From positions 744,001 through 808,000 of the forward strand of contig NZ_JAAZQQ010000001.1 of NCBI RefSeq assembly GCF_012395815.1: a DNA stretch of 64,000 bases. Direction: 5' to 3'. Below are positions 7,023-38,810 of the stretch, piece after piece. A model generated the notes under the pieces. That model searched no databases and was not told the DNA's origin. It worked only from the letters and a program-made list of their open reading frames with translations. Within the stretch, counting starts at the first letter, position 1, and each line of letters opens with the position of its first letter. This DNA comes from Roseicyclus persicicus (GTDB lineage: Bacteria; Pseudomonadota; Alphaproteobacteria; Rhodobacterales; Rhodobacteraceae). The position numbers were made by a program, and so were the translations under genes.

Positions 7023-8051
7023 ATGCCGCATCGCACCTTCCTCTGGTTCATCCTGCCCTCGCTGACCGCGATGATCCTGTTCATCGCGCTGCCGATCGTG
7101 TCGGTGGTGATCCAGTCGCTGCATGTCGAGCACGAGCAGGTGCTGGTGACGGTGGAAAACTGCGGCCCCTTCGGCTGCACCGAGGAAACTCGGGTCGACC
7201 GCGCCGCGACCGAGGCGCTGCGCGAGGCCCAGCCGCTGGGCCGGTTCAACGGGCTCGGCACCTACCTCGACCGCCGCCACCTCGCCACCGCCGAGGTGGC
7301 CGAGGCCTGGCGCAGCAGCGAGACGATGGGCCAGTTCTGGGGCCGGCTGATGAACCTGCCCTTCTACAAGGCGCTGGCCTTCACGCTGGCCTACACCTTC
7401 ATCGTGACACCGCTGGTGCTGGTCCTGGGCCTCGCCATCGCGCTGGGGGTGAACGGGCTGCCGCGGCTGATGCGGGGGCCCACGATCTTCTTCTCGCTGC
7501 TGCCGATGATCGTCACGCCGCTGATCGGGTCGCTGGTGTTGTTCTGGATGATCGACGCCGACGGCGTGATCGGCGCGACGCTGGCGCGGCTGTTCGACGA
7601 TCCGAACCTGTCGCTCAAGGCGTCGCCGACGCTGACCTGGATCACCATCTTCGTCTACGGCGTGTGGCACTCGGCGCCCTTCGCCTTCATCGTGTTCTAC
7701 GCGGGCCTCCAGACCGTCCCCGAAGAGACGCTCGAGGCCGCCATGATCGACGGCGCCAACCGCTGGGAGCGGATCCGCTACGTCGTCATCCCGCACCTGA
7801 TGCCGCTGGCCGTGTTCATCACGCTGATGCAGCTGATGGACAATTTCCGCGTGTTCGAGCCCATCGTCGGCTTCCAGGCCCAGGCCAGCGCGACCTCGCT
7901 CAGCTACATCATCTATTCCGACCTGCGCGGCGACGTGCAGCAGTTCGGCTCGGCCGCGGCGACCAGCGTGCTGACCATCCTCGGCGTCGCCATCCTGCTC
8001 GCCCCGGTGCTTGTGCGCACCTGGCGCGACTTCAACCGGAAAAGGGCCTGA
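7023..8051 (+). CDS. ABC transporter permease, MalF/UgpA type
   Basis: 342 residues with about six membrane helices and the inner-membrane-component EAA loop EAAMIDGANRWERIRYVVIPHLMP, which contacts the ATPase. An unusual hydrophilic insert of about 75 residues (residues 35-110, including a CGPFGC pair of cysteines) lies between helix 1 and helix 2 and would be periplasmic. It follows the solute-binding protein by 65 bases across a hairpin and precedes the second permease by 4 bases. With the MalG-type partner it forms the CUT1 membrane channel for the unknown substrate of the cluster. Confidence 0.9.
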   Translation: MPHRTFLWFILPSLTAMILFIALPIVSVVIQSLHVEHEQVLVTVENCGPFGCTEETRVDRAATEALREAQPLGRFNGLGTYLDRRHLATAEVAEAWRSSETMGQFWGRLMNLPFYKALAFTLAYTFIVTPLVLVLGLAIALGVNGLPRLMRGPTIFFSLLPMIVTPLIGSLVLFWMIDADGVIGATLARLFDDPNLSLKASPTLTWITIFVYGVWHSAPFAFIVFYAGLQTVPEETLEAAMIDGANRWERIRYVVIPHLMPLAVFITLMQLMDNFRVFEPIVGFQAQASATSLSYIIYSDLRGDVQQFGSAAATSVLTILGVAILLAPVLVRTWRDFNRKRA

Positions 8052-8954: not shown

Positions 8955-9959
8955 ATGACCGAGTTCCAGGCGGAAAAGGCGGTGGTGCGGGCGCACCACG
9001 CCGCCATCGCCGCGGCCGCGCCCGACGGCATGGCCGCCGCGCTCGCCGCCCACACCGCGCCCGGCTGGCACTGGCGCGGCATGTGCCCGATCTACGAGCA
9101 CAAGGGCGAGGAGGCGGTGGCCGCTGCCTTCTGGACGCCGCTCAAGACCGCCCTGACGTCGATGCAGCGGCGCGAGGACATCTTCTTCGCCGGGCTGAAT
9201 CAGATCGACGGGTTCCGCTCGGTCTGGGTGGTGTCGATGGGGCACCTGATGGGCCTGTTCGACGCGCCCTGGCTGGGCATCCGGCCGACGGGCCGGCTGG
9301 CCATGCTGCGCTATGCCGAGTTCCACCGGGTCGAGGGCGGCCGCATCGTGGAAACCGCGCAGTTCTGCGACATCCCCCACCTGATGCAGCAGGCGGGGCA
9401 GAACCCCTTCGGCCCCCAGACGGGCGCCGCGCTGGTCCAGCCCGGGCCGCTGACCCATGACGGCCTTCTCCACGGCCCGCAGCCCGTGGCCGAGGGCGAG
9501 GCGACGCTGGCCGCGATCAACGCCATGATCTCCGACCTCGGCACCTGGCAGCTGGGCCTGCCGCTGGAGGAGGAGCTGCGCCGCACCTGGCACGAGGACA
9601 TGCTGTGGTGGGGCCCCGCCGGCATCGGCGCGACCTACACCATCCCCCGCTACGCGAAACAGCATTCCGGCCCCTTCCGCGCCGGCTTCCGCGAGCGGAC
9701 GGGCACGGGGCACATCGCCCGGCTGGCCGAGGGGCACTACGGCGGCTTCTTCGGCTGGCCGAACTTCACCGCCGTGCCCACGGGCGGCTTCATGGGCCTG
9801 CCCGCGACCGGGACGAAGGCCGAGTTCCGCGTCGTCGACATCTACCGGCGGCAGGGCGGCAAGCTTGCCGAGAACTGGGTGTTCATCGACCTCCTGCACA
9901 TGCTGCGGACGCAAGGCGTGGACGTGCTGGCGCGGATGGAGACCCTCGGCCCGTCTTGA
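8955..9959 (+). CDS. SnoaL-like / ester-cyclase family protein (two NTF2-like domains), paralogue 3
   Basis: 334 residues with two NTF2/SnoaL-like domains. It resembles the minus-arm protein at 3396-4388 along its length (DAPWLGIRPTGRLAMLRYAE, WWGPAGIGATYTIPRYAKQH, NWVFIDLL and VDVLARME blocks), so the two are paralogues by duplication. ATG 8955 has a GGGG stretch 6 bases upstream; an in-frame ATG at 8943 does not. Presence of three such proteins, one on the plus arm and two on the minus arm, suggests they process related intermediates or act as a complex. The reaction is unknown. Confidence 0.78.
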   Translation: MTEFQAEKAVVRAHHAAIAAAAPDGMAAALAAHTAPGWHWRGMCPIYEHKGEEAVAAAFWTPLKTALTSMQRREDIFFAGLNQIDGFRSVWVVSMGHLMGLFDAPWLGIRPTGRLAMLRYAEFHRVEGGRIVETAQFCDIPHLMQQAGQNPFGPQTGAALVQPGPLTHDGLLHGPQPVAEGEATLAAINAMISDLGTWQLGLPLEEELRRTWHEDMLWWGPAGIGATYTIPRYAKQHSGPFRAGFRERTGTGHIARLAEGHYGGFFGWPNFTAVPTGGFMGLPATGTKAEFRVVDIYRRQGGKLAENWVFIDLLHMLRTQGVDVLARMETLGPS

Positions 9960-27552: not shown

Positions 27553-27643
27553 GGTGGCGCCAAAATAACGGCAGACAACAGCGGGTCAATCCGGGTTCAC
27601 TTTGCTGCGGCAGCGAAATGCCTGCTTGAGAACCTGGGACGAA

Positions 27644-28912
27644 ATGATGAAAAAACTCCTCCTTGCCAGTGCCTTGTCCGTCGTTTCCGCACATGCCGCG
27701 AGCGCGGAAATCCGAGTCGGCATCCTGCACTCGCTGACCGGCACCATGGCGATTTCGGAAACCACGCTGCGCGACGTGATGCTGATGCTGATCGAGCAGC
27801 AGAACGCGGCCGGCGGCCTTCTGGGCCAGGAGATCGTGCCGGTGGTCGTCGACCCCGCGTCGGACTGGCCGCTGTTCGCCGAGCGCGCGCGCGAGCTTCT
27901 GACGGTGCATGACGTGGACGTGATCTTCGGCTGCTGGACGAGCGTCAGCCGCAAGTCGGTGCTGCCGGTGATCGAGGAACTGAACGGGCTGATGTTCTAC
28001 CCGGTGCAGTACGAGGGCGAGGAAAGCTCGCGCAACGTGTTCTACACCGGCGCCGCGCCGAACCAGCAGGCGATCCCGGCGGTGGACTACTACCTGGAGG
28101 AGCTGGGCGTCGAGGTCTTCGCGCTGCTCGGCACCGACTACGTGTACCCGCGGACGACGAACCGCATCCTCGAGCAGTACCTGCTCGACGCGGGCATCCC
28201 GCAGGAGAACATCTTCGTCAACTACACGCCCTTCGGCCATTCCGACTGGTCGTCGATCGTGGCCGACGTGGTCGCGCTGGGCGAGGGCGGGCAGCAGGTC
28301 GGCGTGATCTCGACGATCAACGGCGACGCCAACGTGGGCTTCTACGCCGAGCTTGCCGCGCAGGGCGTGTCGGCCGACGACATCCCCGTCGTCGCCTTCT
28401 CGGTCGGTGAGGAGGAGCTGGCGGGCTTCGACACCGCGCCGCTGGCCGGCCACCTGGCCGCGTGGAACTACTTCATGTCGGCGGACACGCCCGAGAACGA
28501 GGCCTTCATCGAGGCCTGGCACGCCTTCATCGGCGACGAGAACCGCCCGACCAACGACCCGATGGAGGCCCATTACATCGGCTTCAACATGTGGGTGCAG
28601 GCGGTCGAGGCTGCGGGCACGACCGACGTGGATGCGGTGCGCGAGGCGATGTACGGCATCCAGGTGCCGAACCTGACCGGGGGCGTGGCCGAGATGCTGC
28701 CGAACCACCACCTGACCAAGCCGGTGCTGATCGGCGAGATCCGCGCGGACGGCCAGTTCGACATCATCAGCCAGACCGACCCGGTGCCGGGCGACGCCTG
28801 GACCGACTACCTGGCGGAATCGGCGGTGCTCGAGTCCGACTGGCCGGGGCTGGGCTGCGGGATGTACAACACCGAGACGCAGAGCTGCGTCCAGATCCAG
28901 TCGAACTACTGA
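27644..28912 (+). CDS. urtA: urea ABC transporter substrate-binding protein
   Basis: 422 residues with a signal peptide (MMKKLLLASALSVVSAHAASA). The mature protein opens with EIRVGILHSLTGTMAISE and has FGCWTSVSRKSVLPVIEEL, GLMFYPVQYEGEESS and YVYPRTTNRIL segments, all hallmarks of UrtA. It binds urea (or short amides in some relatives) in the periplasm. ATG 27644 and ATG 27647 are adjacent and equally possible. It is first in urtABCDE and is followed by a strong terminator-like hairpin. Confidence 0.95.
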   Translation: MMKKLLLASALSVVSAHAASAEIRVGILHSLTGTMAISETTLRDVMLMLIEQQNAAGGLLGQEIVPVVVDPASDWPLFAERARELLTVHDVDVIFGCWTSVSRKSVLPVIEELNGLMFYPVQYEGEESSRNVFYTGAAPNQQAIPAVDYYLEELGVEVFALLGTDYVYPRTTNRILEQYLLDAGIPQENIFVNYTPFGHSDWSSIVADVVALGEGGQQVGVISTINGDANVGFYAELAAQGVSADDIPVVAFSVGEEELAGFDTAPLAGHLAAWNYFMSADTPENEAFIEAWHAFIGDENRPTNDPMEAHYIGFNMWVQAVEAAGTTDVDAVREAMYGIQVPNLTGGVAEMLPNHHLTKPVLIGEIRADGQFDIISQTDPVPGDAWTDYLAESAVLESDWPGLGCGMYNTETQSCVQIQSNY

Positions 28913-28925
28913 GCCCATGCTTGCG

Positions 28926-28962
28926 GCGGGCGGTCCCCGAGGGGGCCGCCCGCATCCTTTTT
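28926..28962 (+). terminator. intrinsic-terminator-like hairpin between urtA and urtB
   Basis: GCGGGCGG (28926-28933) pairs with CCGCCCGC (28946-28953), with an inner CCCC/GGGG helix, and is followed by ATCCTTTTT. This is a full hairpin plus T-run. It probably lets only part of transcription pass, giving more binding protein than permease. Confidence 0.8.
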
Positions 28963-28981
28963 CCCGAGCAGTCCCCGCACC

Positions 28982-30949
28982 ATGATACGTCACGTCCTCG
29001 CCGCGCTGGTCGGCGTCCTTCTCCTCGCGCTGCCCGCGCCCCGGGCCGAGGCGCAGGAGGCCACGGGCGAGCTGCAGGCGCTGCTGCAGTCCCGCGCCGA
29101 GCTGGTGGCCGACGCCTCGCGCCGCACAGTGCAGGAGGTGCTCGACCTGCTGGTCGACAGCGAGCTGCCCGAGGTGCCGCGGTTCCTGGCGACCTGGGCC
29201 GCGCGCGAGGTCTACCGGCGCAACGCCGACGGGCTGTTCGTCTATGTCGAGGACGGCGACGCCACCCCCCTGACGCTGATTGACATTTCCACCGGCGCGG
29301 TGGTCGGCGCCGCCACCAGCCGCGAGGTGACGCAGCTGCGCCCCAACCGCGGCGTGCAGACGGTGATCGCCTCGGCGCTGGTCGCCTTCCAGCTGGCCTC
29401 GGACGACCCGGCCGAGCGGCTGGCCGCGCTCGACGCCATCGACGACGCGCCGGACGAGACGCACCTGCCGCTGTTGCGGGAGCTGTTGCAGACCGAGACC
29501 GACGAGGACGTCATCGCGGTGGCCGAGGTGCTGCTGCCGAAGCTGGTGATCGCCTTCGACCGCGACGACGCCGACCGGGTCGCCGCCATCGAGAGCCTTG
29601 CGGGCAACGTGAGCCTTGCCGCGCGGGCCACGCTGAACCCGCTGCTGGCCACCACGGCGGGCGTCGGCACGGCGCTGCCCGAGGGCGAGAACCTCGCCCG
29701 CGTGCTGGAGCCCGGCGGCGACATCGCGCGCGAGGCAGCCTATGCGATGCTGGTCGAGGCCGGGCTGGCGCCGCCGCTGGTCAGCCGCGCGCAGATCCGC
29801 GACACGCTGGCCGCGAACGTGGTCGACGGGCGCGTGGGCGGGATGCCCGTGGGCCAGCTGAACACCGAGGCCGCACGCGACCGGGCCTATGCCGTGCTGG
29901 TGGAGGCCGGCGTCGCCCAGCCCGCCCCGACCGAAGCCGAGGTGGAGGCCGCGCTGGCGTCGCACGTGTTCTACGAGACCTACCGCGAGCCGTCGCAGGC
30001 CGTGACGGATGCCGCCCGCGCCACGCTGGACGGGATCGAGACGCGGGTGGGCCTTTACCGCGTGTTCGACCTGTCGCTGGACGGGCTGTCGCTGGCGTCG
30101 ATCTACTTCCTCGCGGCCATCGGGCTGGCCATCACCTTCGGCGTCATGGGGGTCATCAACATGGCCCATGGCGAGTTCATCATGATCGGCGCCTACACCG
30201 GCTATGTCGTGCAGACGCTGGTGCCCGACTACACCCTGTCCATCGCCATCGCGATCCCGCTGGCCTTTGCCGTGACCTTCGGCGGCGGCGTGGCGATGGA
30301 GCGGCTGGTGATCCGCTGGCTGTATCACCGGCCGCTGGAGACGCTGCTGGCGACCTTCGGCATCTCGATCGCGCTGCAGCAGATCGTGCGGCAGATCTTC
30401 GGCACGCAGGCCCGGCCGCTGACGCCGCCCGAGTGGCTGGCGGGGTCGGTGTCGCTGAACGACGTGGTGTCGATCAGTTCGATCCGCATCGCCATTTTCG
30501 TCCTCGGCGCGGTGTTCTTCGTGCTGCTGTGGCTGATCCTGAACCGCACCCGGCTGGGGCTGGAGGTGCGGGCGGTGACGCAGAACCCGCGCATGGCGGC
30601 GTCGATGGGCATCAACCCCGACCGGATCAACATGCTGACCTTCGGCCTCGGCTCGGGCATCGCGGGGATCGCGGGGGTGGCCATCGGGCTGTTCGCGCAG
30701 GTGGTGCCTGACCTCGGGTCCAACTACATCGTGCAGAGCTTCATGACGGTGGTCGTGGGGGGCGTCGGCAACATCTTCGGGACGCTGATCGGGGCCGGCA
30801 TGATCGGCGGCCTGCAGAAGTTCATCGAGTGGCTGAACCCGACCAACACGCTGGCCGCCCAGACCTACATGATCCTGTTCGTGATCCTGTTCATCCAGTT
30901 CCGTCCGCGCGGCATCATCGCGCTGCGCGGCCGTGCGGCGGGGGATTGA
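28982..30949 (+). CDS. urtB: urea ABC transporter permease UrtB
   Basis: 655 residues. A signal-peptide-like start (LVGVLLLALPAPRAEAQ) leads into a periplasmic region of about 330 residues, which many UrtB proteins carry, with ISTGAVVGAATSREVTQLRPNRGVQTVI. The branched-chain-type permease core follows from about residue 365 with FGVMGVINMAHGEFIMIGAY and VRAVTQNPRMAASMGI. Eight or so membrane helices are visible. It begins 19 bases after the terminator-like hairpin and ends one base before urtC. The N-terminal region has no assigned role. Confidence 0.94.
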   Translation: MIRHVLAALVGVLLLALPAPRAEAQEATGELQALLQSRAELVADASRRTVQEVLDLLVDSELPEVPRFLATWAAREVYRRNADGLFVYVEDGDATPLTLIDISTGAVVGAATSREVTQLRPNRGVQTVIASALVAFQLASDDPAERLAALDAIDDAPDETHLPLLRELLQTETDEDVIAVAEVLLPKLVIAFDRDDADRVAAIESLAGNVSLAARATLNPLLATTAGVGTALPEGENLARVLEPGGDIAREAAYAMLVEAGLAPPLVSRAQIRDTLAANVVDGRVGGMPVGQLNTEAARDRAYAVLVEAGVAQPAPTEAEVEAALASHVFYETYREPSQAVTDAARATLDGIETRVGLYRVFDLSLDGLSLASIYFLAAIGLAITFGVMGVINMAHGEFIMIGAYTGYVVQTLVPDYTLSIAIAIPLAFAVTFGGGVAMERLVIRWLYHRPLETLLATFGISIALQQIVRQIFGTQARPLTPPEWLAGSVSLNDVVSISSIRIAIFVLGAVFFVLLWLILNRTRLGLEVRAVTQNPRMAASMGINPDRINMLTFGLGSGIAGIAGVAIGLFAQVVPDLGSNYIVQSFMTVVVGGVGNIFGTLIGAGMIGGLQKFIEWLNPTNTLAAQTYMILFVILFIQFRPRGIIALRGRAAGD

Positions 30950-30950
30950 G

Positions 30951-32120
30951 ATGGAAGGGTCGATTTTCACCCGCAACCGGTCGGTGCCCGTGTTCATCGG
31001 GGTGCTGACGCTGCTGGCGCTGGGCGTGACCGTGCTGTCGGAGGCCTATGGCACCGGGGCGCTGTCGGTCAGCTTCACCAAGGTGCTGGGGATGACGCTC
31101 TGCCTGTGCCTGGCCGCGCTGGCGATGGACCTGGTGTGGGGGTATTGCGGCATCCTCAGCCTCGGCCATTTCGCGTTCTTCGGGCTCGGCGGCTACGTCA
31201 TCGGCATGTGGCTGATGACGGCGCGGACCGAGACCATCGTGCGCGCGAGCCTGGAGGGCGCCGTGATCCCGCCGACCGAGGCGGAGGTCAGCACGGCGAC
31301 CGCGCTGCAGATCTTCTCGGTCGTGGGCGCGACGGACTGGCCGTGGATGTGGGCGGTGTCGGACAGCCTGTTCCTGAGCCTCGTCATGGTGGTGCTGGTG
31401 CCGGGGCTCCTGGCGCTGGTGTTCGGCTGGCTGGCGTTCCGCAGCCGGGTGACGGGGGTCTACCTGTCGATCCTGACGCAGGCGATGACGCTGGCCCTGT
31501 CGCTCTACCTGTTCCAGAATGACACGGGCCTGCGTGGAAACAATGGCCTGTCCGGGCTCCAGAATATCCCCGGATTGGAAACAATCGGGCAGGACCGGAT
31601 TTCGGTCTGGTTCTTCTGGGCCTCGGCGCTGGTTCTCGGCCTCGCCTATGTCGGGGCGGCCTGGATGGTGTCGGGCAAGTTCGGCAACATCATCCGCGGC
31701 ATCCGCGACGACGAGCAGCGGGTGCGGTTCCTCGGCTACCGGGTCGAGGGCTACAAGCTCTTCGTCTTCACCTTCACCGGCATCCTCTGCGGTGTCGCGG
31801 GAGCGCTCTACTACCCGCAGGCGGGCATCGTGAACCCCGACGAGATCGCGCCGATCGCGTCGATCTACCTGGCGGTCTGGGTCGCCATCGGCGGGCGCGG
31901 GCGGCTCTATGGCGCGGTGATCGGGGCGGCGGTGGTGTCGCTGTTGTCGACCTACTTCACCGGCGGGCGGGCGCCCGACATCGACCTGGGCGTCTATGTC
32001 ATCGAGTGGGTGGACTGGTGGCCGGTGCTGCTGGGCCTCGGCTTTGTCTTGGTGACGCTGTTCGCGCCCAAGGGGCTGGGCGGGCTGGTGGACAGCCTCG
32101 TGCGGAAGGACGCGCCATGA
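30951..32120 (+). CDS. urtC: urea ABC transporter permease UrtC
   Basis: 389 residues with about ten membrane helices. YCGILSLGHFAFFGLGGYVIG and IRGIRDDEQRVRFLGYRVEGYKLF are the LivM/UrtC permease blocks, and NNGLSGLQNIPG is typical of UrtC. It pairs with UrtB. The gene starts one base after the urtB stop and overlaps urtD by 4 bp (ATGA). Confidence 0.95.
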   Translation: MEGSIFTRNRSVPVFIGVLTLLALGVTVLSEAYGTGALSVSFTKVLGMTLCLCLAALAMDLVWGYCGILSLGHFAFFGLGGYVIGMWLMTARTETIVRASLEGAVIPPTEAEVSTATALQIFSVVGATDWPWMWAVSDSLFLSLVMVVLVPGLLALVFGWLAFRSRVTGVYLSILTQAMTLALSLYLFQNDTGLRGNNGLSGLQNIPGLETIGQDRISVWFFWASALVLGLAYVGAAWMVSGKFGNIIRGIRDDEQRVRFLGYRVEGYKLFVFTFTGILCGVAGALYYPQAGIVNPDEIAPIASIYLAVWVAIGGRGRLYGAVIGAAVVSLLSTYFTGGRAPDIDLGVYVIEWVDWWPVLLGLGFVLVTLFAPKGLGGLVDSLVRKDAP

Positions 32121-32857
32121 GCACGCTCTTGGAGGTTCAGGGGATTTCCGTCACCTTCGACGGGTTCCGGGCGATCAACAACCTCAGCTTCGTCATCGGC
32201 TGCCCCGAGATGCGGGCGGTGATCGGGCCGAACGGGGCGGGCAAGACCACCTTCATGGACATCGTCACCGGCAAGACGCGACCCGACACGGGCACGGTGC
32301 GCTGGGGCGAGATGGGCACCTCGCTCCTGTCCATGTCCGAGGCGCAGATCGCGCAGGCGGGGGTGGGGCGCAAGTTCCAGCGGCCGACCGTGTTCGAGGA
32401 CCAGACGGTCTGGGACAACCTGCGGGTGTCGCTCAAGAAACCGCGCGGGCCGCTGTCGGCGCTGTTCGACCGGGTGACCGAGGCCGACCGCGCGCGGATC
32501 GCCGAGATCGCGGCCGAGATCGGGCTGTCTGACCAGTTGCAGCGCCCTGCGGGAATCCTCAGCCACGGGCAGAAGCAGTGGCTGGAGATCGGGATGCTCC
32601 TGGCGCAGGACCCGAAGCTGTTGCTGGTGGACGAGCCCGCGGCGGGCATGACGACCGAGGAGCGGGAGCATACGACGGCGCTGCTCAAGCGGCTGGCCGA
32701 AAGCCACGCGGTGGTGGTGGTGGAGCATGACATGGAGTTTGTGCGCCGCCTCGACTGCAAGGTGACGGTGCTGCACGAGGGGTCGGTGTTGGCCGAGGGG
32801 TCGCTGGATCACGTGATGGCGAACGAGCGCGTCATCGAAGTCTACCTGGGGCGTTGA
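32117..32857 (+). CDS. urtD: urea ABC transporter ATP-binding protein UrtD
   Basis: 246 residues. Walker A GPNGAGKTT, Q-loop KFQRPTVFEDQTVWDNL, signature LSHGQKQWLEIGML (the UrtD/LivG-type variant) and Walker B LLLVDEPAAGMT are intact, with the switch His in VVVEHDMEFV. It is one of two ATPases powering urea uptake. The start overlaps the urtC stop (ATGA) and one base separates it from urtE. Confidence 0.95.
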   Translation: MSTLLEVQGISVTFDGFRAINNLSFVIGCPEMRAVIGPNGAGKTTFMDIVTGKTRPDTGTVRWGEMGTSLLSMSEAQIAQAGVGRKFQRPTVFEDQTVWDNLRVSLKKPRGPLSALFDRVTEADRARIAEIAAEIGLSDQLQRPAGILSHGQKQWLEIGMLLAQDPKLLLVDEPAAGMTTEEREHTTALLKRLAESHAVVVVEHDMEFVRRLDCKVTVLHEGSVLAEGSLDHVMANERVIEVYLGR

Positions 32858-32858
32858 G

Positions 32859-33560
32859 ATGCTGGAAACCCGCGACCTGACGCTCCACTACGGCGGCAGC
32901 CAGATCCTGAACGGGGTATCGATCACGGCCGAAAAGGGGCAGGTGACCTGCGTCATGGGCACCAACGGGGTGGGCAAGACATCGCTGATGAAGGCGATCT
33001 CGGGCACGCACCCGCGCTCGGGCGGCGAGGTGATCCTGAACGGGCAGCGGCTGGGGAAATTGCCGGCGCACCGGCTGGCGCAGATGGGGGTGGGCTATGT
33101 CCCGCAGGGGCGGATGATCTTTCCGCTGCTGACCGTGCGCGAGAACCTGGAGACGGGCCTTGCCTGCCTGCCCAAGGCGGAGCGGGTGGTGCCCGATCGC
33201 ATCTACGAGATGTTCCCGGTTCTGAAGGAGATGCAGAACCGGCGCGGCGGCGACCTGTCGGGCGGGCAGCAGCAGCAGCTGGCCATCGGGCGGGCGCTGG
33301 TGACGCGGCCGAAGCTCTTGTTGATGGACGAGCCGACCGAGGGCATCCAGCCCAACATCATCCAGCTGATCGGCCGGGTGATCGAGCAGCTGCGCGCCGA
33401 GGGCGAAATGGCGATCGTGCTGGTCGAGCAGTATTTCGATTTCGCCTACGACCTCGCCGACCGGTTCTACGTCCTGAGCCGGGGCGCGACGGTGTTTTCC
33501 GCCGCCAAGGCCGACACCAGCCGCGACGCGGTGCAGGCGGCCTTCAGCCTCGGCAAGTGA
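32859..33560 (+). CDS. urtE: urea ABC transporter ATP-binding protein UrtE
   Basis: 233 residues. Walker A GTNGVGKTS, signature LSGGQQQQLAIGRAL and Walker B LLLMDEPTEGIQPNI are intact, with the switch His replaced by Gln in VLVEQYFDFAYDLADR, the normal state in UrtE/LivF. It completes the urea importer. The 340-base gap that follows contains a short GC hairpin (33566-33583) and then the guanidine riboswitch. Confidence 0.95.
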   Translation: MLETRDLTLHYGGSQILNGVSITAEKGQVTCVMGTNGVGKTSLMKAISGTHPRSGGEVILNGQRLGKLPAHRLAQMGVGYVPQGRMIFPLLTVRENLETGLACLPKAERVVPDRIYEMFPVLKEMQNRRGGDLSGGQQQQLAIGRALVTRPKLLLMDEPTEGIQPNIIQLIGRVIEQLRAEGEMAIVLVEQYFDFAYDLADRFYVLSRGATVFSAAKADTSRDAVQAAFSLGK

Positions 33561-33706: not shown

Positions 33707-33824
33707 GCGCAGAGCATTTAGGGTTCCGCCCGGGGCGTCCCGGGGCCAGGTCCGAGAAATGCAGCCGAGCCGGTCAATCCCGGCGCGGTACACGGCGGGA
33801 CAAAATCCCGGGAGAACCCTGCGC
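33707..33824 (+). ncRNA. guanidine-I (ykkC) riboswitch aptamer
   Basis: The leader shows the conserved blocks of the guanidine-I class in order: AGGGTTCCG (33720-33728), AGGTCCGAGA (33748-33757), ACACGG (33790-33795) and TCCCGGGAGA (33806-33815). Helices can be drawn: outer P1 GCGCAG (33707-33712) with CTGCGC (33819-33824), GCATTT (33714-33719) with AAATGC (33757-33762), CCCGGG hairpin (33729-33744), GCCGG/CCGGC (33769-33784) and GGGA/TCCC (33797-33809). It lies directly upstream of a guanidine-type importer and a guanidine hydrolase. Guanidine-I elements turn genes on when guanidinium binds. The block match is from memory of the class consensus; a covariance-model search would settle it. Confidence 0.88.
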
Positions 33825-33851
33825 GATAGGTTCGGCCGCTCCCTGAACGCT

Positions 33852-33894
33852 TTCCTTCGGTCGGACTTTGAACATTCGCATCCGATCGGAGGAA
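33852..33894 (+). promoter_or_regulatory. hairpin covering the Shine-Dalgarno site, candidate riboswitch expression platform
   Basis: TTCCTTCGGTCGGA (33852-33865) pairs over 14 positions (two of them G-U) with TCCGATCGGAGGAA (33881-33894), enclosing a 15-base loop. The 3' arm contains the GGAGG ribosome-binding site (33888-33892) for ATG 33901, so the folded form would block translation. This fits a translational switch under the guanidine aptamer. The left arm does not overlap the aptamer's P1 strand, so how binding would open it is not visible. Confidence 0.7.
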
Positions 33895-33900
33895 CCGACG

Positions 33901-34965
33901 ATGACCAGACTTGCCCTCGCCACCACCACCGCGCTGACGCTTGCGCTGAGCCCCGGTTTCGCCACCGCGCAGGAGCGGACGGAATTCCGCGTCGCCTGGT
34001 CGATCTATGTCGGCTGGATGCCCTGGGGCTACCTGGAGGACTCCGGGATCATGGACGCCTGGGCCGAGCGCTACGGCATCGACATCGAGATCGTGCAGAT
34101 CAACGACTACGTCGAGTCGATCAACCTCTACACCGCGGGCGAGTTCGACGGGGTGAGCGCGACCAACATGGACACGCTGTCGATCCCGTCGGGGTCGGGG
34201 GTGGACACCACCGCGCTGATCGTGGGGGATTTCTCCAACGGCAACGACGCGGTGATCCTGAAGGGCGAGGGCACGCTGGAAAGCCTGGCGGGGATGCCGG
34301 TGAACCTCGTGGAGCTGTCGGTGTCGCATTACCTGCTCGCCCGCGCGCTCGACAGCGTGGGGCTGCAGGAGCGCGACCTGGCGGGCGTCATCAACACGTC
34401 GGACGCCGACATGATCGCGGCCTTCCAGACCGACGACGTGCAGGCGGTGGTGACGTGGAACCCGCTGGTCTCGACCATCGCCGAGGACCCGGCGGCCAAC
34501 ATCCTGTTCACCTCGGCCGACATCCCCGGCGAGATCATCGACATGATGGTCGTCAACACCGAGGTGCTGGAGGCCAACCCCGATTTCGGCCGCGCGCTGG
34601 TGGGGGCGTGGTACGAGCTGATGACGATCATGTCGTCCGACACGCCCGAGGGGATCGCCGCGCGCACCGCGATGGCCGAGGCGTCGGGCACCGACCTTGC
34701 GGGCTATGACGCGCAGCTGGCCTCGACCCAGATGTTCTGGAACCCCGCCGACGCCGTCGCCTTCGTGGAAAGCCCGGCGCTGCCCGAGACCATGGTGAAC
34801 GTCGCCGAATTCCTGTTCGAGCGCGGCATCCTGGGCGAAGGTGCGCCGTCCGCCGATTTCGTCGGCATCGCGTATCCGAACGGCGTGGTGACGGGCGACC
34901 CGGCGAACATCCAGCTGCGGTTCGACCCGAGCTTCATGCAGATGGCCGCCGACGGGTCGCTGTAA
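33901..34965 (+). CDS. guanidine/urea-carboxylase-type ABC transporter substrate-binding protein (NitT/TauT family)
   Basis: 354 residues with a signal peptide (ATTTALTLALSPGFATAQ). The mature part starts FRVAWSIYVGWMPWGYLEDSGIMDAWAERYGI, characteristic of the binding protein first noted next to urea carboxylase genes and now associated with guanidine uptake. Aromatic-rich WMPWGY may form a cation cage for guanidinium (inference). It is directly under the guanidine-I riboswitch and precedes the permease by 24 bases. The role in guanidine import is inferred from family, riboswitch and the hydrolase downstream. Confidence 0.87.
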   Translation: MTRLALATTTALTLALSPGFATAQERTEFRVAWSIYVGWMPWGYLEDSGIMDAWAERYGIDIEIVQINDYVESINLYTAGEFDGVSATNMDTLSIPSGSGVDTTALIVGDFSNGNDAVILKGEGTLESLAGMPVNLVELSVSHYLLARALDSVGLQERDLAGVINTSDADMIAAFQTDDVQAVVTWNPLVSTIAEDPAANILFTSADIPGEIIDMMVVNTEVLEANPDFGRALVGAWYELMTIMSSDTPEGIAARTAMAEASGTDLAGYDAQLASTQMFWNPADAVAFVESPALPETMVNVAEFLFERGILGEGAPSADFVGIAYPNGVVTGDPANIQLRFDPSFMQMAADGSL

Positions 34966-34989
34966 GGGCCGCGGGCGGGGGGGCGCGCG

Positions 34990-35802
34990 ATGCGGTGGAT
35001 CAACCGGCATCCGGGGGCGGCGGGGCGGCTGATGCTGGCCGCGCTGCCCTTCCTGCTGGTCGCGCTGGTCTATTCCGCGGCCTCGGCCGCCCGGCTGGCC
35101 GAGAACCCGCAGGACCGCATCCTGCCCAGCTTCGCCACGCTGGGCGACACCGCCCTGCGGCTGCTGACCGAGGAGGACCGCCGCTCGGGCGAGATCCTGT
35201 TCTGGGGCGACACGGCGTCGAGCCTGTCGCTCCTGGCCTCGGGCGTGGGCATCGCGGCGCTGCTGGGTCTGTGCGTCGGGCTGGCCATCGGGTTGGTGCC
35301 GATGGTCCGGTCGACGTTCCAGGGCTTTGTCGCGGTGCTGTCGATGATCCCGCCGCTGGCGCTGTTGCCGATCCTGTTCATCTCGCTGGGGGTGGGGGAT
35401 GCGGCCAAGATCGCGCTGATCGCCATCGGCATCACGCCCTTCCTGATCCGCGACCTGTCGGCGCGCACGCTGGAACTGCCGCAGGAGCAGCTGGTGAAGG
35501 CGCAGACGCTGGGGGCCTCGACGCTGGCCATCGCGGTGTCGGTGGCGCTCCCGCAGATCATGCCGCGGCTGATTTCCGCCGTGCGGCTGTCGCTCGGCCC
35601 CGCCTGGCTGTTCCTGATCGCGGCCGAGGCGGTGGCGTCGGAAAGCGGGCTGGGATACCGCATCTTCCTTGTCCGGCGCTTTCTCGCGATGGACGTGATC
35701 CTGACTTATGTCGCGTGGATCACGCTCTTGGCCTTCCTGATCGACTGGGGCCTCGCGCGGCTGTCCCGCTGGGCCTACCCCTGGGCGGAGGCGCGGGCAT
35801 GA
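34990..35802 (+). CDS. ABC transporter permease, NitT/TauT family, guanidine import
   Basis: 270 residues with about six membrane helices and the coupling-loop motif ELPQEQLVKAQTLGASTLAIAVSVALPQIMP, matching the EAA loop of nitrate/taurine-type permeases. A periplasmic stretch (residues 33-72) follows helix 1. It likely forms a homodimeric channel for the binding protein upstream. It overlaps the ATPase start as ATGA. The pairing with a riboswitch-controlled binding protein and a guanidine hydrolase supports guanidine as substrate. Confidence 0.88.
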   Translation: MRWINRHPGAAGRLMLAALPFLLVALVYSAASAARLAENPQDRILPSFATLGDTALRLLTEEDRRSGEILFWGDTASSLSLLASGVGIAALLGLCVGLAIGLVPMVRSTFQGFVAVLSMIPPLALLPILFISLGVGDAAKIALIAIGITPFLIRDLSARTLELPQEQLVKAQTLGASTLAIAVSVALPQIMPRLISAVRLSLGPAWLFLIAAEAVASESGLGYRIFLVRRFLAMDVILTYVAWITLLAFLIDWGLARLSRWAYPWAEARA

Positions 35803-36590
35803 GCCTCGTGGAGGTGCGCGACATCTTCCAGAGCTACGGGCAGCGCCCGATCCTCGAACGGGTCAACCTGAGCGTGGCCGAGGGGGAGTTCGTGTCCATC
35901 GTCGGCGCCTCGGGCTGCGGCAAGTCCACCTTCCTGCGGCTGCTCTTGGACCAGGAGCGGCCGACGCGGGGCGAGATCACCGTGGACGGGGAACCGCTCA
36001 AGGGCGAGCCGGACCGGACGCGCGGGATCGTGTTCCAGCGCTATTCGGTGTTCCCCCACCTGACCGTGCGCGACAACATCGTGGCGGCCGAGGCCCTGTC
36101 GCGGCCTCTCGGCCGGCTGTTCGGGGGCGTGAAACGCGCCGCCTGCGCACGGGCCGAGGCGGCGCTGGAGCGGATCGGTCTGGCTCATGTGGCGCAGCAA
36201 TACCCCTCGGCGCTGTCGGGGGGGATGCAGCAGCGGCTGGCCATCGCGCAGGCGCTGGCGGCCAAGCCGCGCATCCTGCTGCTGGACGAACCCTTCGGCG
36301 CGCTCGACCCCGGCACGCGGGAGCAGATGCACCGGTTCCTGCTCGACCTGCGGGCCGAGACCAAGATGACCGTGTTCATGGTCACCCACGACCTGCCCGA
36401 AGCCTTCAAGCTGGGCGACCGCGTGGTCGTCTTCGACAAGACCCGCTGGGACCCGCACGACCCCGCCGCCTATGGCGCGACGATCACCTACGACTTCGAC
36501 GCCCGGAACGGCGGCATCCCCTACCAACTGAACGAGGACCAAGATGGACTTCCTGACCCCGCGCCGCACCCGGTCGCTGAGGCCGGCTGA
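35799..36590 (+). CDS. ABC transporter ATP-binding protein, NitT/TauT family, guanidine import
   Basis: 263 residues. Walker A GASGCGKST, Q-loop FQRYSVFPHLTVRDN, signature LSGGMQQRLAIAQAL and Walker B ILLLDEPFGALDPGT are intact; the switch His is in FMVTHDLPEAF. The C-terminus (from about 225, KTRWDPHDPAAYGATITYDF) is characteristic of the ATPase found with guanidine importers. Its last 47 bases overlap the hydrolase gene in another frame, an unusually long overlap that suggests tight coupling of import and hydrolysis. Confidence 0.9.
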   Translation: MSLVEVRDIFQSYGQRPILERVNLSVAEGEFVSIVGASGCGKSTFLRLLLDQERPTRGEITVDGEPLKGEPDRTRGIVFQRYSVFPHLTVRDNIVAAEALSRPLGRLFGGVKRAACARAEAALERIGLAHVAQQYPSALSGGMQQRLAIAQALAAKPRILLLDEPFGALDPGTREQMHRFLLDLRAETKMTVFMVTHDLPEAFKLGDRVVVFDKTRWDPHDPAAYGATITYDFDARNGGIPYQLNEDQDGLPDPAPHPVAEAG

Positions 36591-37788
36591 CGCGCCCGCC
36601 CGAGACCGCCGCGCGCATCACCCCGACCTGACCAAGCTTCTGGGCTGGAAGGCGATGCGCGCCGAGGCCGACATCCCCGGCACCCGCTGGGACGAGGAAC
36701 GGCGCTGGGCGCTGCGCATGGGCCTGACAGGCGCGGACAGCATCGAGGACAAGTCGATCCCCACCTTCGCGCGGGGCGAGCTGCCGCATTACGCGGGCAT
36801 CAACACGTTTCTGAAGGCGCCCTATGCCGAGGACGTGCTGGAGGTGGCGCATTACGACGCGACGGTGCTGGGCATCCCCTTCGACGGGGGCACCACCTAC
36901 CGCCCCGGCACCCGGTTCGGGCCGCAGGGGGTGCGCAAGATCAGTGCGCTTTATACCCCCTACAACTACGAGATGGGGGTGGACCTGCGCGAGCAGATGA
37001 CGCTGTGCGATGCGGGGGACGTGTTCACCATTCCCGCGAACCTGGAAAAGAGCTTCGACCAGATCAGCCGGGCGGTCAGCCACGTGTTCTCCTCTGGCAG
37101 CTTCCCCGTGATGATCGGCGGCGACCATTCCATCGGCTTTCCCTGCGTGCGGGGCATCGCGGAGTGCACGTCGAAGAAGATCGGGATCGTGCATTTCGAC
37201 CGCCACGCCGACATCCAGGAAAAGGACCTGGACGAGCGGATGCACACGACGCCGTGGTTCCATTCCACGAACCTGCCGAACGTGCCGGCCAAGAACCTGG
37301 TGCAGATCGGCATCGGCGGCTGGCAGGTCCCGCGCGAGGCGGTGAAGGTGGCGCGCGAGCGCGAGACCAACATCATCACCATGTCCGACATGGAGCGCAT
37401 GGGCATCGACAAGACCGCCGAGATGGCGCTGGAGATGGCCTGGGACGGGGTGGACATGGTCTACATGTCCTTCGACATCGACAGCATCGACTGCGGCTTC
37501 GTCCCCGGCACGGGCTGGCCCGAGCCGGGCGGGTTCCTGCCGCGCGAGGCGTTGGCGCTGGCCTCCAAGGTCGCGGCCGAGGGCCTGTGCGGGATGGAGC
37601 TGGTGGAGGTGTCGCCGCCCTACGACACGTCCGACATCACCGCGCTGATGGGGACGCGGGTGATCGTGGACGTGCTGGGCTCGATGGTGGCGCATGGCAC
37701 GCTGGGCAAGCACAAGGCGCATATCGACAAGCCGGTCAGCATCCCCCACGGCGAGTTCGAGGGGCGGAGGTGGTCCAATGCCCCATGA
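36544..37788 (+). CDS. gdmH: nickel-dependent guanidine hydrolase (GdmH-like, ureohydrolase family)
   Basis: 414 residues, longer than agmatinases because of an N-terminal extension of about 100 residues, as in GdmH. The six metal ligands of the arginase fold are visible: H195 (GGDHSIG), D219/H221/D223 (HFDRHAD) and D311/D313 (SFDIDS). The segment after the second ligand block (QEKDLDERMHTTPWFH) and GTGWPEPGGFLPREAL resemble GdmH of cyanobacteria rather than agmatinase or guanidinobutyrase. The reaction is guanidine + water to urea + ammonia. GAGGA precedes ATG 36544. Position in a riboswitch-controlled guanidine operon supports the call; biochemical specificity is inferred. Confidence 0.85.
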   Translation: MDFLTPRRTRSLRPADAPARDRRAHHPDLTKLLGWKAMRAEADIPGTRWDEERRWALRMGLTGADSIEDKSIPTFARGELPHYAGINTFLKAPYAEDVLEVAHYDATVLGIPFDGGTTYRPGTRFGPQGVRKISALYTPYNYEMGVDLREQMTLCDAGDVFTIPANLEKSFDQISRAVSHVFSSGSFPVMIGGDHSIGFPCVRGIAECTSKKIGIVHFDRHADIQEKDLDERMHTTPWFHSTNLPNVPAKNLVQIGIGGWQVPREAVKVARERETNIITMSDMERMGIDKTAEMALEMAWDGVDMVYMSFDIDSIDCGFVPGTGWPEPGGFLPREALALASKVAAEGLCGMELVEVSPPYDTSDITALMGTRVIVDVLGSMVAHGTLGKHKAHIDKPVSIPHGEFEGRRWSNAP

Positions 37789-38233
37789 CCATCACCACCA
37801 CGGGCACGGGCACGGGCATCACCACCACGACCACCCGCACGGGCACGGCCACAACCACGCCCATGCCGATCACCTGCATTCCCATCTCATGCCCGAGGAC
37901 GAGGCCGCCGACCTGCAGGTGCTGACCGCGCAGTTCATCGACGGCTTCGTCAGTGCCCGCGACAAGGCCGCCTACCTGCGGCTGGCGGGCGTGCCGCTGG
38001 AGCGGCCGGGCAAGACGGGGCCGAGCACGCTCAAGCTGGTGGACGTGGAGCTGAAGACCGAGTGGCAGGTGGGCACCGCCTCGCCGTCCTTCGGCACGCG
38101 GGAGCTGAGCTACCTGCCGTTTCCGGGCGAGATGATCCGGGAACGCACCAACATGGCGCTGGTCTATGTCTCGATGGACGAGAAGGACCGCCTCGATATC
38201 CGCGATTTCCTCGCTGCACGTGAAAGGACCTGA
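37778..38233 (+). CDS. histidine-rich protein, candidate nickel donor or store for the guanidine hydrolase
   Basis: 151 residues. Residues 3-36 contain 20 histidines in HxH and HHHH runs, resembling the metal-storing His tract of HypB/UreE-type nickel chaperones, but there is no P-loop, so it is not HypB. Residues 45-150 form a separate folded-looking domain (QFIDGFVSARDKAAYLRLAG, ELSYLPFPGEMIRERTNMALVYVSMDEKDRL) that I do not recognise. It overlaps the end of the hydrolase gene by 11 bp, with GGAGG upstream, so it is coupled to it. Nickel delivery is inference from the His tract and from the known nickel need of GdmH. Confidence 0.8.
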   Translation: MPHDHHHHGHGHGHHHHDHPHGHGHNHAHADHLHSHLMPEDEAADLQVLTAQFIDGFVSARDKAAYLRLAGVPLERPGKTGPSTLKLVDVELKTEWQVGTASPSFGTRELSYLPFPGEMIRERTNMALVYVSMDEKDRLDIRDFLAARERT

Positions 38234-38236
38234 CCG

Positions 38237-38407
38237 ATGAAGACCGTGATCGCCGCCCTTGCCCTGACCCTGCCCGCCGGTGCCGCCCTGGCCCACGAGG
38301 CGGGCGCCGTGGCCCACATCCACCCCCATGGCGGCGAGGCCGTGCTGGCCGCGCTGGCGGTGATGGCGGGCGTGGCCGTCCTGTGGTGGCGCAGCCGCCG
38401 CGGCTGA
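38237..38407 (+). CDS. small secreted or membrane protein with His-containing loop
   Basis: 56 residues. A signal-like helix (MKTVIAALALTLPAGAALA) precedes HEAGAVAHIHPHGG, a short periplasmic stretch with four His, then a membrane helix (VLAALAVMAGVAVLWW) and an RSRRG tail. The layout resembles the minimal start of HupE/UreJ-type metal permeases but is far too short to be one. It starts 3 bases after the His-rich protein gene. A metal-handling helper for the hydrolase is a guess from position and histidines. Confidence 0.68.
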   Translation: MKTVIAALALTLPAGAALAHEAGAVAHIHPHGGEAVLAALAVMAGVAVLWWRSRRG

Positions 38408-38414
38408 CCCTGCC

Positions 38415-38810
38415 TCAGCCGCGCGCGAACAGCGCGGCCAGCACAGCACTGCGCTCGAGCATCCCCACCAGCCTGCCGCCCTCGATGACGGGCAGCACGC
38501 GGTGGGGCACCTCGAGGAACAGCTCGGCCGCGCGGACGATGTCGTCGCCGGCGTCGACCGTCACGACCGTGGCCGACATGTGGTCGCGCACGGTGCCGCG
38601 CCATTCCTGATAGTAGCTGGCATGGAGCGCGGGGCGGAAGCAGTCCTTTTGCGTCAGGATGCCGACCGGCGCGCCGCCAGCATCGACCACCGGGGCGGCG
38701 GCGGCCCCGGCCGAGATCAGCGCGCCGATGGCGCGGCGGATCGGGTCGTCGGGGGACAGGCGCAGGATGTCGGCCTGCATGACGGTGCGGACGCGGAGGT
38801 CGGTGCTCAT
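38415..38810 (-). CDS. CBS-domain protein at the end of the nqr operon
   Basis: 131 residues made of two CBS motifs (about 8-65 and 72-128): VRTVMQADILRLSPDDPIRRAIGALISAG with GAPVGILTQKDC, and VRDHMSATVVTVDAGDDIVRAAELFLEVPHRVLPVIEGGRLVGMLER. Such pairs bind adenine nucleotides and regulate partners. The start overlaps the nqrM stop as ATGA, so it is co-translated with the Na+-NQR set and may sense energy state. It converges on the small gene at 38237 with a 7-base gap. Confidence 0.88.
   Translation of the reverse strand: MSTDLRVRTVMQADILRLSPDDPIRRAIGALISAGAAAAPVVDAGGAPVGILTQKDCFRPALHASYYQEWRGTVRDHMSATVVTVDAGDDIVRAAELFLEVPHRVLPVIEGGRLVGMLERSAVLAALFARG

Follow-up and report, generated by a model that had tools for sequence, protein, structure and literature searches.

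A 64,000-nucleotide stretch of the Roseicyclus persicicus genome (hereafter the window) contains a guanidine-I riboswitch followed by genes for an ATP-binding cassette (ABC) importer, a hydrolase of the GdmH type, a histidine-rich protein to which we give the working label GhrP, and a small, probably membrane-bound protein (Table 1). The pathway itself is of a known type; the distinguishing addition is GhrP, a conserved protein of an unnamed family encoded beside GdmH, and this is the new point. The initial annotation of this DNA did list the histidine-rich protein, but passed over its weight, namely that a conserved unnamed family stands here where cyanobacteria have HypA and HypB. The locus as a whole is probably best explained as a guanidine-inducible operon for nitrogen scavenging, with GhrP as a nickel helper. 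Free guanidine would bind the guanidine-I RNA and turn the operon on; the ABC importer would carry guanidine into the cell; GdmH would split it into urea and ammonia without ATP; and a urease encoded elsewhere would free two more ammonia molecules from the urea. The GhrP gene overlaps the 3' end of gdmH, and its product would most likely bind nickel by its histidine-rich head, and its conserved domain would help to place nickel in GdmH, which is the job of HypA/HypB for the cyanobacterial enzyme. The small histidine-bearing membrane protein (HupE in two relatives) would probably aid nickel supply.

GhrP and its association with gdmH

A genome scan with one genome per species returned 567 stretches encoding a relative (one gene may give two), from which the best 80 loci were kept; a GhrP gene follows gdmH in 80 of 80. 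The association extends to broader samples, in each of which the window's own genome was counted once. Among 385 Alphaproteobacteria (the class sample), GdmH was found in 12 genomes, GhrP in 13, and both in 11; among 398 Pseudomonadota (the phylum sample), the same seven genomes carry GdmH and GhrP. Fisher tests that ignore shared ancestry give 1.6e-18 and 3.4e-15, respectively. The GhrP profile includes rows from two of the 13 carriers in the class sample and five of the seven in the phylum sample. Of the two samples, the class gives the stronger test, because the profile includes most of the phylum-sample carriers and these rows had been found by looking beside gdmH; given this overlap, the phylum sample shows mainly that GhrP is absent from the 391 genomes lacking gdmH.

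The exceptions in the class sample involve incomplete genes. Both genomes with GhrP only, G759 and G541, have truncated copies, and the one with GdmH only (G488) has a partial gene, 53% identical, that is cut off by the end of a contig. In G759 (locus L140, about 9019-9940), a riboswitch is followed by the first part of the binding-protein gene, which passes directly into the final part of a GhrP gene, reflecting either an operon with a lost middle or an assembly fault. In G541 (locus L139, about 7085-7370), a GhrP fragment without the head and N-terminal part lies after a MacB-like ABC operon with a DUF3299 gene among its members.

The window GhrP has 20 histidines, all within residues 1-36, and no cysteine. 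It matches no Pfam family, and no NCBIfam model at E 0.001; when Pfam was searched up to E 10, five of six GhrP proteins were unmatched, and the head of the L149 protein gave a weak ZIP match (E 0.13). A weak match to PA4063 (E 0.017) falls within the histidine-rich part. Five versions from other families (L103-L106 and L109) are 26-31% identical to the window GhrP, yet comparison of profiles shows them to be homologous to it (probability 98.8, E 8.5e-17). The core is predicted to fold as two helices, four strands, and a last helix (mean predicted local distance difference test score 81, predicted template modeling score 0.70), with a weak stretch at residues 71-81, and a fold search with this model recovered no PDB match at E 0.001. 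The Limimaricola GhrP in the plasmid collection PLSDB is labelled "hypothetical protein." We found no description of GhrP in the accessible portions of the open full-text literature; a mention in Funck et al. (2022) or Sinn et al. (2021) is possible.

A putative role in nickel loading

Statements about earlier work, here and below, reflect the accessible passages of the cited papers. Both characterised guanidinases contain nickel (PMC11410670). In cyanobacteria, hypA and hypB lie beside gdmH (PMC8390497, PMC10119275), and their products are said or suggested to load the nickel of GdmH (PMC12186494, PMC8390497, PMC10119275); these are the only GdmH nickel loaders named in those passages. For comammox Nitrospira, the acquisition of guanidinase nickel is stated to be unclear (PMC11410670).

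No HypA/HypB match was detected by tblastn (E 1e-3) beside gdmH in 86 loci, using own-genome queries and no cyanobacterial positive control. In a later set of 16 loci, a HypB query matched L141 and L148 at about 31%; since both matches are near urease (a 5' ureB RNA at L141, an adjoining urease alpha gene at L148), they are probably UreG and were rejected as HypB. The window's own genome does encode HypA (PF01155), on contig C7, with an adjacent HypB named by eye. Among 25 genomes with gdmH and GhrP, a genome-wide search that covered HypA and not HypB found HypA missing from 17, including 15 of the 23 genomes at least 90% complete. Because GhrP tracks gdmH and HypA is missing from these 17 genomes, GhrP may help to load the nickel of GdmH, and we incline slightly toward its being a nickel-loading or maturation partner of this enzyme. 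A bolder proposal, held only tentatively and somewhat against the odds, is that GhrP founds a new class of nickel-insertion proteins: one small protein, lacking any recognisable GTPase domain, in place of both HypA and HypB, evolved in Alphaproteobacteria for GdmH alone and with a fold unmatched in the PDB.

The genes downstream of GhrP are compatible with such a role. In Sinorhizobium fredii NGR234 (PF04955, 153.3 bits) and at L106, the gene after GhrP belongs to the HupE family; the similarity search for HupE covered 16 loci and six same-genus loci rather than the 80 best. Directly after GhrP in 41 of 81 loci is a short protein with a signal-like start, histidines, and one hydrophobic segment; the same rule, written post hoc, is satisfied at four of 5000 random positions. 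The 56-residue protein of the window satisfies it, and its closest relative, L013, has no such protein by the rule. The 56-residue product is probably a membrane protein and a candidate envelope metal-binding helper.

Several points weigh against a nickel-loading role, beginning with the shared ancestry and profile overlap noted above for the co-occurrence samples, and with the missing positive control of the locus search for HypA/HypB and the HypA-only scope of the genome-wide one. HypA is present in eight of the 25 genomes, the window's own included. The histidine-rich head is missing from the L143 GhrP and short at L142, L144, L147, and L148, and the aligned core has no invariant histidine or cysteine; given a variable head and such a core, metal binding may not be the conserved function of GhrP. 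No chaperone has been recognised for the N. inopinata guanidinase, which is active all the same, though perhaps not fully metal-loaded (PMC11410670), and four actinobacterial GdmH loci, on two Rubrobacter, one Nonomuraea, and one Embleya plasmid, have neither GhrP nor a HypA/HypB match. These cases suggest that GdmH does not always need a partner.

GhrP could instead be an assembly or stability factor specific to GdmH, its head an optional nickel store, with nickel itself supplied by the accessory proteins of urease or by the cell's general pool. We judge this rather unlikely, yet it is a live rival, because the head is variable, the core lacks invariant histidine or cysteine, HypA occurs in eight genomes, and the N. 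inopinata enzyme manages without a chaperone. The core is the constant part of GhrP, and on this account the head would be dispensable (5 to 27 histidines in the first 50 residues among the 80 best loci, excluding L072, whose rule-assigned start is too early), as its absence at L143 suggests; urease, and hence probably a set of nickel-handling proteins of its own, is found in 25 of 25 genomes. Most heads, however, are strongly histidine-rich, with a median of 16 histidines in 50 residues. Nickel proteins, HypB and UreE among them, typically carry histidine-rich segments, and the joining of HupE to the operon in two relatives likewise argues for a link to nickel. As a conserved, unnamed companion of alphaproteobacterial GdmH, GhrP makes a putative second nickel-loading route directly testable in culturable hosts, including S. 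fredii NGR234.

Guanidine sensing, import, and hydrolysis

That the operon serves guanidine import and hydrolysis is highly probable, whatever the role of GhrP. The initial annotation had proposed a guanidine-I riboswitch, and the Rfam model RF00442 upholds it (84.2 bits, where the gathering score is 63; E 1.4e-13; model positions 1-107 of 107). This is the sole Rfam match at gathering score within the window and the single guanidine-I match in the genome (3.7 Mb, 10 contigs). The element is a guanidine-I riboswitch, for which guanidine binding and gene control are predicted. A riboswitch is present in 77 of the 80 best loci (one of the 77 is cut by a contig end), five of the 80 having contributed to the building of the model; it is missing from L024 and L089, which stop at or near a contig end, and from L073, which is also without transporter genes. 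The more distant phylum-sample carriers L103-L106 have it in four of four loci. Outside the 80 best loci, in less related genomes, its presence is less constant. Nine further class-sample carriers include five with a match at or above the gathering score (L142, L143, L145, L146, and L148), one below it (L149, 41.1 bits), and one in which its position lies beyond the contig end (L144). The other two, L141 and L147, combine importer, gdmH, and GhrP genes in an operon, and a search at relaxed thresholds still revealed no guanidine-I riboswitch; this counts against the reading as a guanidine-inducible operon.

The window leader, between aptamer and start codon, is 84 nucleotides long. Leader folding was overall not better than that of shuffled sequences (z -1.43 and -0.61). 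None of 86 leaders examined has a T-run, and the Shine-Dalgarno sequence is predicted to be paired (>0.7) in 53 of the 86, with start codons chosen by rule and no shuffled control. Because of these two observations we lean toward translational control; no clear mechanism emerges from the leader.

The hydrolase was recognised initially as GdmH-like, with all six metal ligands. The ligand residues are indeed found (H195, D219, H221, D223, D311, and D313, which we take to be the metal ligands of ureohydrolases). Its best PDB matches by phmmer are Synechocystis GdmH (7ESR/7OI1; 556.6 bits) and the N. inopinata guanidinase (9FEK; 545.1 bits), both solved structures, to which it is 66% and 64% identical; the third, proclavaminate amidino hydrolase, scores 175.5 bits. 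Guanidinase activity requires a threonine, a histidine, and a tryptophan (T105, H222, and W313 of N. inopinata), and specificity for guanidine depends on the threonine and the tryptophan (PMC11410670). The corresponding residues here are T118, H234, and W325, on a mapping that assumes PDB chains numbered 2 above the paper and that fits H222 and W313 as well as T97 and W305 of Synechocystis. Of the 40 GdmH rows of the tree that do not come from the PDB, all keep T118 and 39 keep W325; the three other ureohydrolases of the genome have threonine at the tryptophan position. The exception, L113 of Embleya sp. NBC_00888, is a GdmH-like protein with threonine for the guanidinase tryptophan, at a locus where no riboswitch was found; it perhaps acts on another substrate.

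In a 48-row tree covering 20 of the 80 best loci, 42 GdmH rows, including both characterised guanidinases, fall on one side of a branch with 100/100 support. The hydrolase thus groups apart from guanidinobutyrase, guanidinopropionase, and the genome's three other ureohydrolases, in a tree that leaves out proven agmatinases, L150, and the same-genus loci. The outgroup branches are very long, the genome's own paralogue L154 attaches nearest the GdmH branch, and L113 may have been drawn by the outgroup. Agmatinase-type family models score below their cut-offs (NF002564, 207.3 vs 302; the agmatinase model TIGR01230, 170.3 vs 174.3); because TIGR01230 falls only narrowly short, family models alone would not settle the identity. 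Together these data support membership in the GdmH/guanidinase clade, as first proposed, with nickel content and guanidine turnover predicted. The computable outcomes that the initial annotation had named as contrary to it were not seen: the riboswitch model matched, and the enzyme joined the two characterised guanidinases.

Two alternatives concern the substrate. The operon might serve another small guanidino compound, such as methylguanidine, given that the substrate of the importer is suggested by family alone and that its binding-protein model is named "putative urea." We regard this as very improbable: a guanidine-I switch, T118, and W325 are all present, and when the N. inopinata guanidinase was given several guanidino compounds it released no detectable urea, with agmatine yielding very little (PMC11410670). 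An ordinary agmatinase or guanidinobutyrase beside a coincidental switch, as the public annotation of relatives ("agmatinase family protein") and the 4-bit shortfall to TIGR01230 might suggest, was rejected as barely credible on family models, tree placement, the tryptophan residue, and 64-66% identity to proven guanidinases. Many of the genes that now carry an agmatinase annotation probably encode guanidinases.

Urease alpha is encoded on another contig (G000:C6; TIGR01792, 967.5 bits) and was found in all 25 gdmH- and GhrP-bearing genomes examined, in 24 of them above cut-off. The urea-carboxylase model TIGR02712 has no match over cut-off anywhere in the genome, and a carboxylase pathway was rejected on this ground; the 13 partial matches are to biotin-carboxylase and biotinyl parts, none within model positions 443-1124. 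The earlier proposal that no carboxylase step is involved agrees with these results, and the coherent reading is that guanidine is converted to urea and then to ammonia with no carboxylation.

Layout, relatives, and neighboring genes

The six genes from the riboswitch to position 38407 lie on one strand and have no internal stops. The order given initially (riboswitch, ABC importer, hydrolase, histidine-rich protein, small probably-membrane protein in a row) was borne out. The genes had also been described as overlapping, which is correct for three of the five successive junctions (-4, -47, and -11 nucleotides) but not for the other two (24 and +3).

Table 1. Predicted features of the guanidine operon in the R. 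persicicus window
Feature	Position	Strand	Basis
Guanidine-I (ykkC) riboswitch aptamer	33707..33816	+	RF00442, 84.2 bits, full length
Leader, aptamer to start codon	33817..33900	+	Predicted 14-bp hairpin covering Shine-Dalgarno sequence, RNA folding
ABC importer periplasmic binding protein	33901..34965	+	TIGR03427 ("putative urea" type), 523.8 bits, cut-off 333.9
ABC permease	34990..35802	+	PF00528
ABC ATPase	35799..36590	+	PF00005
GdmH, nickel-type guanidine hydrolase (predicted)	36544..37788	+	Arginase family; PDB matches, residues, tree
GhrP (working label), 151 residues	37778..38233	+	Histidine-rich head (1-36) and unnamed domain of ~115 residues
56-residue protein	38237..38407	+	Signal-like segment, histidine-bearing stretch, one hydrophobic segment; no family

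Judged from its genes alone, the operon resembles the GdmH operon of Synechocystis sp. PCC 6803 (sll1077 with hypA, hypB, and the ABC genes sll1080-1082; PMC8390497, PMC12186494) in bringing together a guanidine-I riboswitch, an ABC importer, a GdmH of the nickel-dependent type, and putative metal-handling genes; unlike that operon, it has no HypA/HypB match, and GhrP and the small histidine-bearing membrane protein stand instead. The comammox N. inopinata guanidinase locus shares the guanidine-I riboswitch and an enzyme of the same clade, but its transporter is an APC permease and it lacks a recognised nickel chaperone (PMC11410670), where the window has an ABC importer and GhrP. Metformin hydrolase operons, with hypA, hypB, two ureohydrolase genes, and hupE, similarly pair a nickel ureohydrolase with dedicated nickel genes, and HupE is also seen in two relatives of the present operon; metformin hydrolase, however, is a two-subunit enzyme activated through HypA/HypB, and no GhrP appears in the accessible passages (PMC11399263). 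Guanidine carboxylase operons share a guanidine riboswitch and an ABC importer, but proceed by ATP-dependent carboxylation and allophanate (PMC12186494), whereas no carboxylase over cut-off was found here.

The initial annotation considered an alphaproteobacterial version of this operon little described. This is true in part, but riboswitch-controlled GdmH-type genes have already been noted across a wide range of microorganisms (PMC8390497), and copies in Alphaproteobacteria are numerous; the operon is not rare. All of the best 80 loci bear alphaproteobacterial names, mostly of Rhodobacterales, and at the bit thresholds used the binding protein is found in 77, the permease in 78, the ATPase in 79, and GhrP in 80. 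This distribution suggests guanidine as a nitrogen source for a large bacterial group, many members of which have marine names. In PLSDB, 11 plasmid records matched GdmH, of which six were analysed: the S. fredii NGR234 and Limimaricola loci have both riboswitch and GhrP, and among the four actinobacterial loci only one, from Rubrobacter, has a riboswitch. On the Rubrobacter indicoceani plasmid (L110), GdmH and a guanidine-I riboswitch lie close to urease genes and to a gene of the sodium:solute symporter family, which perhaps serves the pathway as an alternative importer.

Upstream of the operon, a urea ABC importer (urtA-D) at 27602-33560 ends 146 nucleotides before the guanidine riboswitch, its fifth gene (32859-33560) being assigned as urtE by position. 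Six same-genus loci, two of them with less than 5 kb of upstream sequence, were searched for urtABCDE genes next to gdmH and gave none; the adjacency of these genes to the riboswitch may therefore be recent or due to chance. Just past the operon, on the opposite strand, a small CBS-domain protein is encoded at 38415-38810.

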